The position numbers and the translations under genes are program-made. Source: Leucocoprinus leucothites (lineage: Eukaryota > Basidiomycota > Agaricomycetes > Agaricales > Agaricaceae). Taken from it: 54,677 nucleotides of DNA. Location: assembly GCA_013368445.1 (NCBI GenBank), contig JAACJO010000064.1, positions 1 to 54,677 on the forward strand, read 5' to 3'. Under the pieces are notes generated by a model, which searched no databases, was not told where the DNA came from, and was given only the letters and a program-made list of their open reading frames with translations. This document shows positions 28,748 to 54,677 of this stretch, one piece after another. How positions within the stretch are numbered: the stretch's first letter is position 1; every line of letters begins with the position of its first letter.

Positions 28748-31700
28748 ATGGGTACGCGCTCCCTTATAGCACTTTGCTCCTCGTTGACATAAGGTCTTAC
28801 ATTGATTAGGCGTGCCGGAGGTTGGTCCTGCTTGAGCTTATGTTATCCTATTGAACTCAACTTGAACGCAACCAGTTCTATCAGTACATATCGTGAGTGG
28901 CTCTTATCACTCATATAATAGTGGACTCACTCATTCCGAATTCCTCAAGTGGAAGATATCCTCAGATCTCACAGCCAGTAACAGACCATCAACTTCTTCC
29001 GGAATTTGGTGAGTTGACAGTTCTTTCCGACCCTCACCGCCGTGGGTCCAACTTTTTGCAAGACAATCTATATCTTGACCTCAACGGAATCATACAGCAG
29101 TGTTGGTCTATCCTCACTTATTATCCAGCTTCCCCTTAATCAGGAGACTAATCAGGTTCTTGTAAGCGCGATGACGACTTCTTCCTTGGAATATTCGGAA
29201 TCTCCGAGGAACAACTGTTCTCTCTAGTTTTCCTATATGTCGATCAGCTCATTGGAAGAATTCGTCCAAAAGATCTACTTTTTCTCGCCGTCGACGGTGT
29301 CGTTCCGCGTGCCAAAATCAATCAACAGCGTGCACGACGTTTTCGAGCCGCAGAAGAGGCCAAGGAGCTGAGGAGGAAGGCAGACATGAGTGATGAAACT
29401 CTACAAAAACAGTTTGATAGTGATTGTATCGTACCAGGTATTTTCCTCCACGCCTTCAATTGGCCGACCATGACGATTCTCCCAGGCACGCAATTTATGG
29501 CTCATTTTTTCAAGCGTTTGGGATACTATGTTAATATGAAAATCACAAGCGACGTTGACTGGAAAGAGGTCCAGGTCATATTGTCTGGTCCGTATGTACC
29601 AGGTGAAGGCAAGCACAAAATCATGGAGTATATCAGGCTATCCCGAGCACAACCTGGATACAATCCCAATACTCGCCATTGTCTGTACGGTCTCGACGCT
29701 GACCTCATCATACTTGCACTTGGGAGCCACGAGCCACATTTCTGCTTGTTACGTGAGGAACTCAGTTTCGAACCGGACCCGAGGAGAAGAGGAAGTCGAA
29801 GGCACTTCCCATTCGTCTTTATTTTCTTATTAAAAGCGCTCATCGGTGTCGTAGCTTTGAGACAAAAAACTCACACATTGTTCACATTTCTCTTATGCGT
29901 GAATGCCTTGATATCGAATTTCATGAGCTTGAGTCACAGCTACCTTTCCAGTACAACTTGGAAAATGTGATCGACGATTTCATTTTACTTGCTGTACTTG
30001 TCGGGAACGATTTCTTACCCATCCTTCCCGGCTTTCATGTGGGTAAGAATGGGTTGGAGGTTTTACTCGACATCTATAAAAGGCTGTTACCTACGCTTGG
30101 TATGTACCCATCTCATCCATACGTGAACTGAGAGAATACTCACGACCAAACGAGATGGATGCCTCAACCTGAGTGGTGACGTTTCACTCAGACGAATTCA
30201 GGCTCTTTTCGACGAAATGGCTCAGTGGGACGGACATGATTTTGAGAAGAAATATGCGACTCTGAAGGGATTAAATCGACAAACGGAGAAACAGATGGTC
30301 ACGATGGTGAAAGAAATGAAGGGGTCTACACTCGGTACGCAAACGCCTATACTTCCGTCATGATTAAAACGCCAATCCTCAGGCTGCTTTCAGTTTTGAC
30401 AGACTCGGAACGAACGATCTTCAAACAAGTCAAATCTTACGTTCTAGGAAATCGAAAAGTGCCCTTTGATTCAAGAGATCCTTTATCTATTCCAGGCGTG
30501 TTCTCCACTCACGGACGGGCCTTTATTCACCTACTCGCTCAGATCCTCCATCTTGATGTCCGGGTAGAAGGCGCTCGAGTCCTTTTTATGTTTAAAGACT
30601 TTCCCTCCACCGGTGAGCTACTGAGAGTGACTGCGAAGACGATAGTAACGGCAATGGTGATATAGCCACGCAAGCGTTCAAAATGTATGAAAGCGCAATG
30701 GTCCTCAAGGGAAAAGACGCCGACAACATCGAATCGCAGTATGAAGAGTCCATCAAGAAGAAACTTACCGAACGGAAGGCGCAGCACTATGAAGTAAGTT
30801 TCAGATGCTCCTGATATTAAACCTCTTTTCTAATTATCATAAGGAAATGCTTGGAACCTCCTACAAACGACCAGACGCATTGAAAGAAGCGGCGACGAAA
30901 TACGTCGAAGGCTTGCTGTGGGTAGTGAAATACTATTACGGTGGGGTCCCTTCCTGGAGATGGTTTTATAACCACTATTATGCTCCACTGGTGTCTGGTA
31001 TGGGCTTATCGCTTACCCTTCTTGGCGAATAATCTTGAATATCTCGCAGAGTTACGTGGCGTTGATGAGATGAAGTTTCACTTCGACATCGACGAGCCAT
31101 TTACGCCATTTGAGCAACTTATGCTCGTTCTACCTCCAATTAGCTCCCAATACGTACCGCCGGCTTACAGGAATTTGATGATTGGACCAAACTCACCATT
31201 CCAAGAATTCTTTCCGACCAAGGTTGAGCTGAACTTGGAGGGGGACAGCCCTGATTGGGACGTAGTTATTAAAATCCCGTTCATTGACGACGAGAAACTG
31301 CTTCGAGCGATGAGGGGTAAGTGTATACCACAACCACATGTATATGCTAACATCACATTTTTACAGCTCGCGAACATGGACTAACAGACGATGAACGGAG
31401 ACGAAACGCTATACTTCGTCCCACAAAGCTTAGTCACGATGCCGACAAAGTTACTTTTTTCTGGAGCTCGATTCGCGGTATTCCGCACATTCACAACCGT
31501 CACTGTAAGACAGAGCCATTCACACCTCCCACATCCAACGAGGTCCCTCATTTCTCGGGCCTCCTTGATGGCGTACTCCTTGGGTCAAGATCCCCTGCCG
31601 GATTCCCTTCCTTCAAAACCCTTCCACACTCGGCTACTTTAGGTCACAATAGTGACATCAAAGCCTCCGTCGCAGACCCGGATATTCCTAAACCCAGGAA

Positions 31701-33578
31701 CAAGTCTATATTGTTAAAGGTCACCGGAGCTTCGTGGTTGACAGAAGGAATCGCGCATTCCATCCTGGGAAAAAGTGTATACACTGGATGGCCGTTTTTA
31801 CGGGAGGGACTGGTGATGGGTATATCCAGCTCATCGTATCGATACAATAGGTCTCCCGCTCGCTGGAACCAGCTCTCACGGGTCGCAAAGACGCAACATA
31901 CTGCACGGGAATCAGAAAACTGGAAGAGTACGGTAAAGCATCTTGAATCGGCTGAGTTGCGACGAGGGATTTTATTAGGGGAAGTTGAGTTGCTGCTGCG
32001 TGTGAGGCCGTTGATAGGCATCACCATTTCGGACACCGGTGCATGGGTCTGAGAGGGACATAGTCGAGCATCCAGTGCAAATGTGTCTGAAGATAGTCGA
32101 GCAGGAGGATGCACATCTAGTAAAGAATGGACTATTACCGCCCTTTGCGGACTTGTTCCTGAAAGACACTCAGCTATTTCTCCTCGCAGATTGGGCATAC
32201 GGAGAGTTAGCACGCGTCACCATCACGAGCGATAAACAACTGTCGCTTTTCATCGAGGTGAGCAGGGATCAGACCCACAATCAAGGGTTACTCACCGCTC
32301 TTTACGAAACAGTCTATCACGCACGAAACCGCTTTATTAAAACGAATAAAAGCCATCGTCAATAACCCCGCAGAGCCAGTATACCTGCCATCTTACGATG
32401 TGGCCAAAATCCTCGGAATCTCACCTCTCGCATTGTCAAAGATCACGTCGACCTTCCCGGTCACCGTCGAGCACTCCGCAGACCAACTTGATATTGGCAT
32501 AGGTATGAAGTTTGACAGGACCGGGTTCAAAGTTGTTGGCTATACGAGGAAACATAAGAGCTACTGGGAGTATAGCGGAACAGCTGTAGAGCACTTGAAA
32601 GCATACAAGGTGATTCTCGGTCCTGCGCTTCATATGAATGAGGAGTATAAGCGAAGTATTACTTACATGTTATGTATTCTAGGCACGATTTCCTGATATT
32701 TTCAACTCCTTGAATACCATAGGCGATGTCACATCTGTCGCTTCCAAAATATTCAAGGGACCTCAACCTGAGGAGCAAGTTAAGGCGGCCCGAAAGTGGC
32801 TCGCAAAAAGAGGTCTACGTAACCTTCCACTAACATCGGTGTACGAACAGCTTTCCGAGGTCCGTTTATATCGGTGGTTTCGAATTCCATCATCCCATTA
32901 ACTTGCCCTAGAGCGTTATTATGAAACTCGAGGAAGAACTGGACCCAATCACGAAGTCCTCAACGACATCTATAACCGGAGACATCATGGTAGAAGGCGT
33001 TAACGCTAGAGCCGTCCTTAAACCTGAAAATGCCGTCCATCGTTTACAAAACCAAGTGTTTGCACTTGGTGATCGAGTGAGGATGGTGAAAAACTCCGGC
33101 CCTGTTCCTCCAGCGGCAAAAGGCATAGTTGTTGGCCGTGACGACAACTCATTAGACGTTTTGTGGGATGAGCCCTTCATGCTTGGGACGACACTGGATG
33201 GAAGGTTCGGATATTCTCCCGTTTAACAGTACCTCGGGTTGAATGGTATCATTCAGATGTTCTGATTATCGTGGCATGACCGTGGACCCCAAGTCGTGCC
33301 TAAACTTGACAAATCCCCAGTTCAGGGTACCAATGCCCTCACCTGCTATTATGCCACCGAGCCGCCCCTGGCACCCAGCCATTCGACAAGACAAGACGAG
33401 ACGACCCCGAGGCGAACGAGGAGTGACTCAACGAGCAATTGCAAATGTCAATGAACGCGACCGTCAAGATGACTGCTCGGCTACAACTGTCCAAAATAAG
33501 CCAACTCTTGAGAGTCTTCGAGAGAGGAGAAGGGAAAGGGGAAGGGCAAAGGGAAGTAAGGGTGGAGGAGGAGAGTGA
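28748..33578 (+). pseudogene. XRN1: XRN1 5'-3' exoribonuclease paralogue, copy 1 (frameshifted)
   Basis: The 5' end is spliced from ATGG (28748-28751), an 11-nt and a 17-nt exon to MGVPEFYQYISGRYP. The nuclease core follows: DNLYLDLNGII, AVDGVVPRAKINQQR, VPGEGKHKIM, YGLDADLI, VGNDFLP, PSWRWFYNHYYAP. The C-terminal part has FPSFKTLPHSA, the SH3-like FALGDRVRMV...DVLWDEPFMLGTTLDGR and CLNLTNPQF, ending in a basic Arg/Gly tail at 33578. Xrn1 degrades decapped 5'-monophosphate RNA in the cytoplasm. Lesions: a frameshift at about 30612-30630 (the acidic linker continues in another frame) and another at about 32036-32052. The intron after the LREE block starts GC instead of GT (at 29803). Metal ligand Glu of GEGEHK is Lys (29611-29613) and the base-stacking His after DLNGII is Gln. 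The copy is almost certainly non-functional as a nuclease. Confidence 0.85.
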
Positions 33579-54200: not shown

Positions 54201-54677
54201 GAGAATATTCATAGAGTGGCCATCTCTACGGGAAGGTCTGGTAACGGGCGTATCCGACTCTACTTTCGTATATGATTGGCCTGCTTCTCGTGGAGATCGC
54301 CCCTCGAAGGTCGTATCTATACGGCATTCCATACGCAGTTCAAGTCAGTGGAAGAACAAGGTAGAGCGCCTGGAACAAATTTACTTGGATCGTGGGGTAT
54401 CGACGGGTCCCGTTGAGGTGTTGTTACTTGTCAGACCACTGCTAGGAATGCAGACCTCGGAAACCGGAGCGACAACGAAAGAGTATGTGGTGGAAAGCGA
54501 CACGGTCGATTTTCCGGTACAGATGTGTGTGACGACGGTTGACTTGGAGGATCCACGTTTCGTCGAGAAGGGCCCATCTCAATTGAGGGACCTCTTCCCT
54601 GAGGACGCTCAGGTGACTTATCTTGGAGACAATGCATATGGTTCTTCCGCAAGTGTCGCAGCAACCCGTGACACGAG
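51208..54677 (+). CDS. XRN1: XRN1 paralogue, copy 4 (likely pseudo-enzyme, cut by right edge)
   Basis: The ATGG / 11-nt / 17-nt micro-exons give MGIPLFFRFICERYP. The nuclease core, PSWSWVFNYHFSP and the PFKPLEQLVAMMSP and FPSFKTIPHSAVLDF regions read open to the edge, which falls in the exon coding GDNAYGSSASV. The active site is altered: DFNGII is DFNEII (Gly to Glu, 51549-51551), GEGEHK is GEGKHK (Glu to Lys, 52066-52068), and the NQQRSRRFR pocket is a RVLWQRAFL segment. AVDGV, SDADL and LGNDFLP are kept. One base is missing at about 51852-51856. The following intron, 55 nt with weak donor GTGCTC (51885-51939), has no stop, and retaining it restores the frame. The next intron (48 nt, 52256-52303) is also open in frame. 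An expressed protein without nuclease activity is plausible. Confidence 0.8.

Follow-up and report, generated by a model that had tools for sequence, protein, structure and literature searches.

A subtelomeric tandem array of diverged XRN1 paralogues in Leucocoprinus leucothites, with natural changes at predicted active-site and 5'-phosphate-pocket residues

A 54,677-base contig of the Leucocoprinus leucothites genome (47.0 Mb in 110 contigs) raises the question of what a mushroom might do with several copies of XRN1, a 5'-3' exoribonuclease, lying side by side. The contig, C64, was analysed in its entirety and is referred to here as the window. A preliminary description of this DNA had proposed four XRN1 copies in one orientation and one 3' fragment, interrupted by a single unrelated gene on the opposite strand. 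The interpretation developed below, to which we attach a probability of roughly 0.56, is that five diverged XRN1 paralogues lie in a subtelomeric array and that their predicted properties differ: copy 2 would be an ordinary nuclease, copies 1 and 4 would not cut RNA, and copies 3-5 would have a poor grip, or none, on 5'-monophosphate ends. Judging by residue changes almost never seen in relatives, it is likely that four of the five copies have acquired new, possibly non-cutting, ways of handling RNA.

Matches to the XRN_N domain (PF03159) were confined to contigs C64, C19, C4 and C1 in a genome-wide profile search in which all 17 candidates were scored. The four in the window lie on the plus strand and coincide with spliced models whose split first codons fall at ATG 28748, 37730, 43271 and 51208 (each copy was modelled with a purpose-written spliced protein-to-DNA aligner, the query for the window copies being ordinary XRN1), bearing out the four copies, their common orientation and the additional 3' fragment. 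The opposite-strand gene is likewise present, as a minus-strand open reading frame (ORF) for which a Pfam search returned no match. Contig C19 contains five full tandem paralogues and two broken 3' fragments, the window four paralogues (the fourth truncated) and one fragment. The intact XRN1 expected elsewhere in the genome is found on C4, an ordinary gene with 15 modelled introns and zero lesions, and C1 carries a RAT1-like gene. Both descent and architecture assign the array copies to the XRN1 family. XRN_N, XRN_M, XRN1_D1, XRN1_D2_D3 and SH3-like domains are all above the Pfam cut-off in copies 1, 2, 3 and 5, and a precomputed listing (P0002) gives the same five for copy 4. This domain order is that of XRN1 (Xrn1, exonuclease II), and intron positions are nearly those of the ordinary XRN1 of this genome, copies 1-5 on C19 having 16, 15, 15, 15 and 14 modelled introns at mostly shared positions (an intron within the second codon, plus one more in copy 5, precede the modelled starts). 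The presence of these modelled introns speaks against processed, RNA-copied duplicates. Four genes of C19 appear in protein listings (D9756_009689, 009691, 009692 and 009694), and proteins P0001, P0003, P0004 and P0124, together with the P0002 prediction, match our models over most of their length. In contrast with XRN1 proper, the array forms a separate, fast-evolving tandem paralogue clade, with Glu178 replaced by Lys (E178K) in copies 1 and 4 and, in copies 3-5, a changed 5'-phosphate pocket and a Ded1-type tail motif.

It could be argued that such an array is an artefact of assembly. C19 (748,424 bases) ends in a TTAGGG array, that is, at a telomere; copy 1 starts ~22 kb from this end, and window positions 17.3-54.7 kb align with C19 737888-700419, inside the last 48 kb of that contig. 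A telomere repeat was sought on C64 and none was found, and window 1-13 kb has no long match on C19. Up to 33.8 kb the two contigs are 95-96% identical; the block at 33.9-38.9 kb holds 55 substitutions, the last at 37,988, and the three blocks covering 38.9-54.7 kb are free of substitutions but show 26 indel events, of which 21 are of 1 bp (18 of these in homopolymers), with bases missing from the window in 21 of the 26. We assign the left part of C64 (17-38 kb), including copy 1, to a second haplotype and regard the right part (37989-54677) as C19 sequence, less accurately read; C64 as a whole has the look of a chimeric haplotig that was poorly polished, and gene calls on it will be falsely broken. 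In favour of an artefact, C64 from 37,989 differs from C19 only by indels and is not an independent witness for copies 2-4. All five copies, however, lie in one 748-kb telomere-ending contig, copy 1 is a member of the array on the second haplotype also, and the C19 copies differ by 24-56% of their amino acids, so they are not one gene assembled repeatedly. We regard an artefact as the least credible of the alternatives, in agreement with the original description of the locus as a real XRN1 expansion. Pseudogene formation by frameshift was considered for the window copies and rejected: the frameshifts of window copies 2-4 (in copy 2 a single one, at 41516) do not occur on C19 and resemble sequencing errors, and the 1-bp frameshift of window copy 1 at 32047 is absent from C19 too.

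The descent of the array was explored with 128 fetched proteins, taken from three lists that hold the best 120 of 3334, 7983 and 3834 matches. The tree and the residue comparison comprise 130 rows, namely 123 of these proteins and seven of our models (P0001-P0004 and P0124 were dropped as the same genes as the models); nine are paralogue rows, among them W1, the second allele of copy 1, and 121 are other XRN1s. FastTree (LG model, 130 rows) recovered a paralogue clade with support 1.0 that unites the five copies with two L. birnbaumii proteins and one of Leucoagaricus sp. SymC.cos, these three being the same-clade paralogues found elsewhere among the matches listed. Copies 3-5 form a sub-clade within it (support 1.0). 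A C20 mixture model applied to 39 of the 130 rows returned the paralogue clade with an SH-aLRT of 100 and placed it as sister to the ordinary Agaricaceae XRN1 (99.8). The FastTree placement beside Volvariella (support 0.75) is taken as long-branch attraction because the mixture model moved the clade. Individual array copies do not show the grouping with the ordinary XRN1 of relatives that is expected of a single-copy orthologue. A topology test did not reject a purely Leucocoprineae origin of the duplicate (p-AU 0.29), so that the duplication may lie on either side of the split from Agaricus. The proposal of one lineage-specific clade holds in that there is a single paralogue clade, but this also has members in L. 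birnbaumii and SymC.cos; the closer relationship of copies 3 and 4 to each other is upheld by the motifs they share and by the copy 3-5 sub-clade, in which the proteins are mutually 75-76% identical. The lists also include two XRN1s of Cyathus striatus (P0052 and P0109), which are close sisters of one another in the 39-row tree.

The growth of the array has left a trace in C19. In a self-comparison the arrangement in which the 3' end of copy 2 is followed by a spacer and copy 3 recurs as fragment, spacer and copy 4, and then as fragment and copy 5. The window fragment, whose model's first 54 bases (48406-48459, ahead of a 1021-bp gap) were excluded, corresponds to C19 ~705618-704630; a second 3' fragment, with two lesions, lies at C19 697939-697015, and both match the 3' end of copy 2. 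The repeat order thus shows that a unit consisting of the 3' end of copy 2, the spacer and copy 3 was copied in steps, with breakpoints inside copy 2, and the 3' fragments are the scars of tandem duplication. Stepwise duplication had been suggested from the window alone, and both the tree and this pattern agree with it.

The copies differ from ordinary XRN1 at positions central to its chemistry. Eleven sites were compared by alignment, numbered as in K. lactis Xrn1 (3pie): seven acidic catalytic residues (D35, D86, E176, E178, D206, D208 and D291) and four residues of the 5'-phosphate pocket (K93, Q97, R100 and R101). Ten of the eleven are invariant among the 121 other XRN1s, themselves drawn from the best-120 lists, with one gap each at D86, E176 and E178; the exception, D35, is kept in 112, falls in a gap in seven and is changed in two. 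Five of the eight distinct paralogue genes are changed, the unchanged ones being copy 2, in which every tested catalytic and pocket residue is kept, L. birnbaumii g7682 and the SymC.cos gene. Copy 1 carries E178K in both haplotypes and keeps K93, Q97, R100 and R101; the changes are Q97L and R101G in copy 3, Q97L, R101A and E178K in copy 4, and Q97L, R100G and R101A in copy 5. The seven acidic residues are therefore complete in copies 2, 3 and 5 but not in 1 and 4, and the pocket is complete in copies 1 and 2 and broken in copies 3-5. His41 is Gln in copy 1 and Tyr in copies 3 and 5. Within the same clade L. birnbaumii NP233_g6149 (P0053) has likewise lost a catalytic Asp, through D208N in the DxD, and three separate catalytic losses are required on the tree. 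Unlike copies 3-5, however, the L. birnbaumii paralogues (NP233_g6149 and NP233_g7682) and that of SymC.cos (P0113) all have an intact pocket and are without the RY(V/I)PPHLR motif described below. The gene model of NP233_g6149 is 1715 amino acids long and includes a long C-terminal extension.

These losses bear on the earlier suggestion that the array raises dosage by supplying extra XRN1 enzyme of the ordinary kind. Copy 2, with all tested residues retained, would fit such a role. However, active-site or pocket residues have been lost in four of the five copies, and identity to ordinary XRN1 is 48-50% for those four (58% for copy 2), which leaves a dosage function very improbable.

What the substitutions might do is indicated by laboratory mutants, as described in the excerpts available of the papers cited. 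E178Q abolishes catalysis in K. lactis Xrn1 and also when knocked into yeast (PMC8850482), and the same change inactivates human Xrn1 (PMC9410882); R101 touches the 5' phosphate, and R101G lowers RNA binding by 60% (PMC9684461). We infer that E178K would act like E178Q. Copies 1 and 4 are altered at an active-site position, E178, as are the dead Xrn1 mutants (E178Q, E176G), although in the array the change is natural, is to Lys and not Gln, and is apparently held by selection. H41A blocks deNADding but not 5'-phosphate decay, whereas H41D disrupts the latter (PMC8850482); H41Q and H41Y are not among the H41 variants described in the excerpt of that paper.

Copies 3-5 have a further peculiarity. 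Their tails carry in frame the sequence RYVPPHLR (copies 3 and 5) or RYIPPHLR (copy 4), and thus the Ded1/DDX3-type heptapeptide YVPPHLR or its Ile form, which is found in these copies only within the array. The wider pattern Y(V/I/L/M)PPH(L/M/I/V) is absent from all 125 other fetched proteins, which come from the best-120 lists. A DNA pattern for Y(V/I)PPHLR gave six matches in the 47-Mb genome (one with the reversed control), and with C64 discounted Y(V/I)PPHLR occurs at five distinct places: copies 3, 4 and 5, a DDX3/Ded1-like helicase whose best PDB match is DDX3X, and a MIF4G-domain protein (C4:824775-824794) that carries RYIPPHLR. The MIF4G piece had no convincing match in the PDB, and the protein is presumably Sgd1/NOM1-like. 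In the tail exon of 52 codons, 9-15 codons per pair of copies change the amino acid, with at most one (V/I) inside the motif. According to the excerpts, YVPPHLR of Ded1 contacts eIF4A (PMC11917139) and YIPPHLR of DDX3X binds eIF4E (PMC9642913). In Ded1 and DDX3, however, the heptapeptide is N-terminal, ahead of the DEAD-box helicase core, while in the array an exoribonuclease-like protein carries it in its C-terminal tail.

Whether the altered copies are still retained can be judged from the ratio of nonsynonymous to synonymous substitution rates (dN/dS). Between pairs of copies 3-5 dS is 0.38-0.52 and dN/dS is well below 1, at 0.26-0.34; it is 0.18 in all three pairs for the first part of the nuclease domain and 0.59-0.96 for the acidic linker. 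Estimated by branch from single-difference codons (those with more than one difference, 14, 20 and 21, were excluded, and the model lacks transition bias), dN/dS is 0.16 for copy 3 including the stem of copies 4 and 5 (p 1.5e-29 versus neutral), 0.24 for copy 4 (p 1.2e-14) and 0.22 for copy 5 (p 1.6e-16). The two alleles of copy 1, both with E178K, show 32 synonymous and 41 nonsynonymous differences and a dN/dS of 0.37 (in two regions dS = 0 and the ratio is undefined), a nonsynonymous deficit with p = 6.6e-5 against neutrality at a preset neutral share of 0.77. The allele test is the stronger because its variation post-dates E178K, if both haplotypes inherited that change. Ratios of 1.03 and 0.64 for window copies 3 and 4 (W3 and W4) against C19 were discarded as products of window frameshifts and false introns. 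The E178K-bearing and pocket-altered copies thus appear to be still under constraint, and neutral duplication, one of the explanations offered in the preliminary description, is disfavoured by dN/dS.

The main rival to this interpretation is slow decay of subtelomeric duplicates, in which a paralogue of XRN1 would have been amplified by an unstable subtelomere, leaving copies 1 and 3-5 to drift towards pseudogenes with no present role. The site near a telomere, the fast evolution, the lost key residues, the broken 3' fragments that adjoin the genes and the ratios in the acidic linker of copies 3-5 are all consistent with decay, as are one or two possible lesions in each of copies 1, 3, 4 and 5 under a milder model. 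So is the tail of copy 1, which differs in length between alleles: that of C19 stops (721717) directly after NLTNP, and that of the window (33303-33578) continues for 86 codons past this stop, to its own at 33576-33578. In contrast, decay sits poorly with branch dN/dS values of 0.16-0.24 (nonsynonymous deficits p < 1e-13), with the value of 0.18 in the first part of the nuclease domain, and with constraint on copy 1 alleles that both carry E178K; moreover, the few possible lesions vanish when short introns are admitted, though dS among copies 3-5 has already reached 0.38-0.52. With settings that prefer introns, copies 1-5 on C19 contain no stops and no frameshifts over 1,214-1,238 modelled residues, the penalties used for copies 1, 3, 4 and 5 favouring an intron over a lesion. 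A lesion-free copy 1 needs an unproven intron in the acidic linker that absorbs an apparent frameshift, copies 3-5 need an intron near residues 358-384, and copy 4 needs in addition a 40-bp intron at 700399-700360. In-frame stops at residues 366-379 of copies 3 and 4 were considered and dismissed, as they are removed by a 54-bp intron that was modelled for copy 4 and coincides with the joint in P0001, the deposited protein of copy 3.

It should be emphasized that several observations weigh against a constrained and functional array. Under milder penalties the C19 copies show one frameshift (copy 1), one stop (copy 3), one stop plus one frameshift (copy 4) and one frameshift (copy 5), copy 2 being clean, and these lesions fall in the linker or at intron sites. 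In window copies 1 and 4, frameshifts were masked by false introns under the intron-preferring settings, and thus one or more of the C19 copies could be truly broken. The deposited P0001, P0003 and P0004, which represent copies 2, 3 and 5, have starts unlike those of the models, and the P0002 prediction fuses copy 4 to 3' fragments. The paralogues have a rate of evolution several times that of ordinary XRN1, and E178K in copy 4 may be a recent change. The tail motif is not clearly conserved beyond its flank, and we do not call it specially conserved because the differing codons are too few. Finally, Xrn1 with four mutated catalytic-centre or pocket residues, of which only H41 is identified in the excerpt, still degraded 5'-phosphate RNA in vitro with no significant difference (PMC9410882), and pocket loss may therefore not abolish activity. 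Because the choice of penalties decides whether the models are free of lesions, we have weighted the constrained array down and decay up, and consider decay possible but, on balance, unlikely.

A different use of the copies would be an arms race, with active nucleases diversifying against mycovirus or transposon RNA much as single-copy yeast XRN1 does against totiviruses. According to the excerpt of PMC5053509, XRN1 in yeasts restricts totiviruses in a species-specific way and bears signs of positive selection; the array has diversified rapidly in its lineage, and copies 2, 3 and 5 retain all seven tested acidic residues. The same excerpt reports, however, that catalytically dead Xrn1 (E176G) failed to suppress L-A, and loss of catalysis is what we predict for copies 1 and 4. 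Furthermore, dN/dS is below 1 in all five regions among copies 3-5, as measured region by region. We therefore view an arms race as quite unlikely.

Returning to the array of constrained paralogues, sequence, descent and selection are shown directly, and from these we infer every biochemical step of the following scheme. An XRN1 duplicate born in the Agaricaceae would have been retained by selection as a second nuclease, represented by copy 2, a predicted ordinary 5'-3' exoribonuclease; it would then have been amplified in tandem near the telomere and have diversified. Cutting of RNA is predicted to be lost in copies 1 and 4. Copy 1, with its pocket kept and its catalytic Glu replaced by Lys, might occupy decapped 5' ends and so protect them from ordinary XRN1. 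Copies 3-5, with a predicted weak or absent hold on 5'-monophosphate ends, may be brought to RNA not by a free 5'-phosphate but by the Ded1-like RY(V/I)PPHLR tail, through contact with eIF4A or eIF4E. The likely outcome would be to modulate the 5'-3' decay of certain RNAs, whether the fungus's own or those of transposons or mycoviruses, and not to add decay of the ordinary kind. A bolder and rather doubtful proposal is that the array is an XRN1 toolkit, made up of a second nuclease (copy 2), a non-cutting end-capping protein (copy 1) and a Ded1-tail group that has given up recognition of the 5'-monophosphate and docks on the translation-initiation machinery (copies 3-5), by which decay might be aimed from, or blocked at, the cap complex.

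Table 1. Positions of the array and its features in the window (C64) and on C19
Feature	Contig	Position	Strand	Remarks
Shared sequence	C64	1..9000	none	found in several other contigs; in C4 and C10 close to contig end
XRN1 paralogue copy 1	C64	28748..33578	+	allele of D9756_009694 on C19; E178K, H41Q; 5'-phosphate pocket intact
EGKHK, copy 1 (Glu178 to Lys)	C64	29605..29619	+	codon AAG
Unrelated ORF between copies 1 and 2	C64	34807..36171	-	454 amino acids; from ORF list
XRN1 paralogue copy 2	C64	37730..42847	+	D9756_009692; tested catalytic and pocket residues all kept; Arg/Gly-rich tail
XRN1 paralogue copy 3	C64	43271..48227	+	D9756_009691; Q97L, R101G, H41Y; catalytic acids kept
Altered 5'-phosphate pocket, copy 3	C64	43819..43851	+	AKMRLLRQRGF in place of AKMNQQRSRRF
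RYVPPHLR, copy 3 tail	C64	47863..47886	+	Ded1/DDX3-type heptapeptide; sequence read
3' fragment, copy-2-like XRN1	C64	49480..50467	+	query residues ~960-1238; 9 lesions
XRN1 paralogue copy 4	C64	51208..54677	+	runs off window end; C19 703824-699378; E178K, Q97L, R101A
Altered 5'-phosphate pocket, copy 4	C64	51754..51786	+	AKMRVLWQRAF
EGKHK, copy 4 (E178K)	C64	52060..52074	+	codon AAA
Copy 1	C19	726255-721717		spliced model
Copy 2	C19	717324-712827		spliced model
Copy 3	C19	711775-707295		spliced model
Copy 4	C19	703824-699378		spliced model
Copy 5	C19	ATG 696700, to 692129		spliced model

The first 9,000 bases of the window are probably subtelomeric, and positions 5264-9000 are 99% identical to C23:512462-516198, because of either a recent exchange of sequence between chromosomal regions or redundancy in the assembly. 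A 917-amino-acid ORF on the minus strand (9147-11900) has a weak OrsD match, and upstream of the array a minus-strand GTP cyclohydrolase gene (19469-20578; GTP_CH_N, E 1.4e-80) has an additional weak match to GTP cyclohydrolase II. A scan of the window against Rfam at gathering scores gave no match.

The XRN1 family itself is well known, and what we rate as new is a tandem array with natural loss of active-site and pocket residues under constraint; no XRN1 expansion of this kind was found among the open-access papers listed, nor did any listed title report this nuclear genome. Residues that have been mutated in the laboratory, E178 to stop cutting and R101 to weaken 5'-phosphate binding, are here changed naturally in adjacent and apparently retained genes. 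If the proteins are made, there would be roles for XRN1 that require neither cutting nor recognition of the 5'-monophosphate, and the array would offer natural separation-of-function forms for the study of decay-translation coupling and of RNA viruses in mushrooms.

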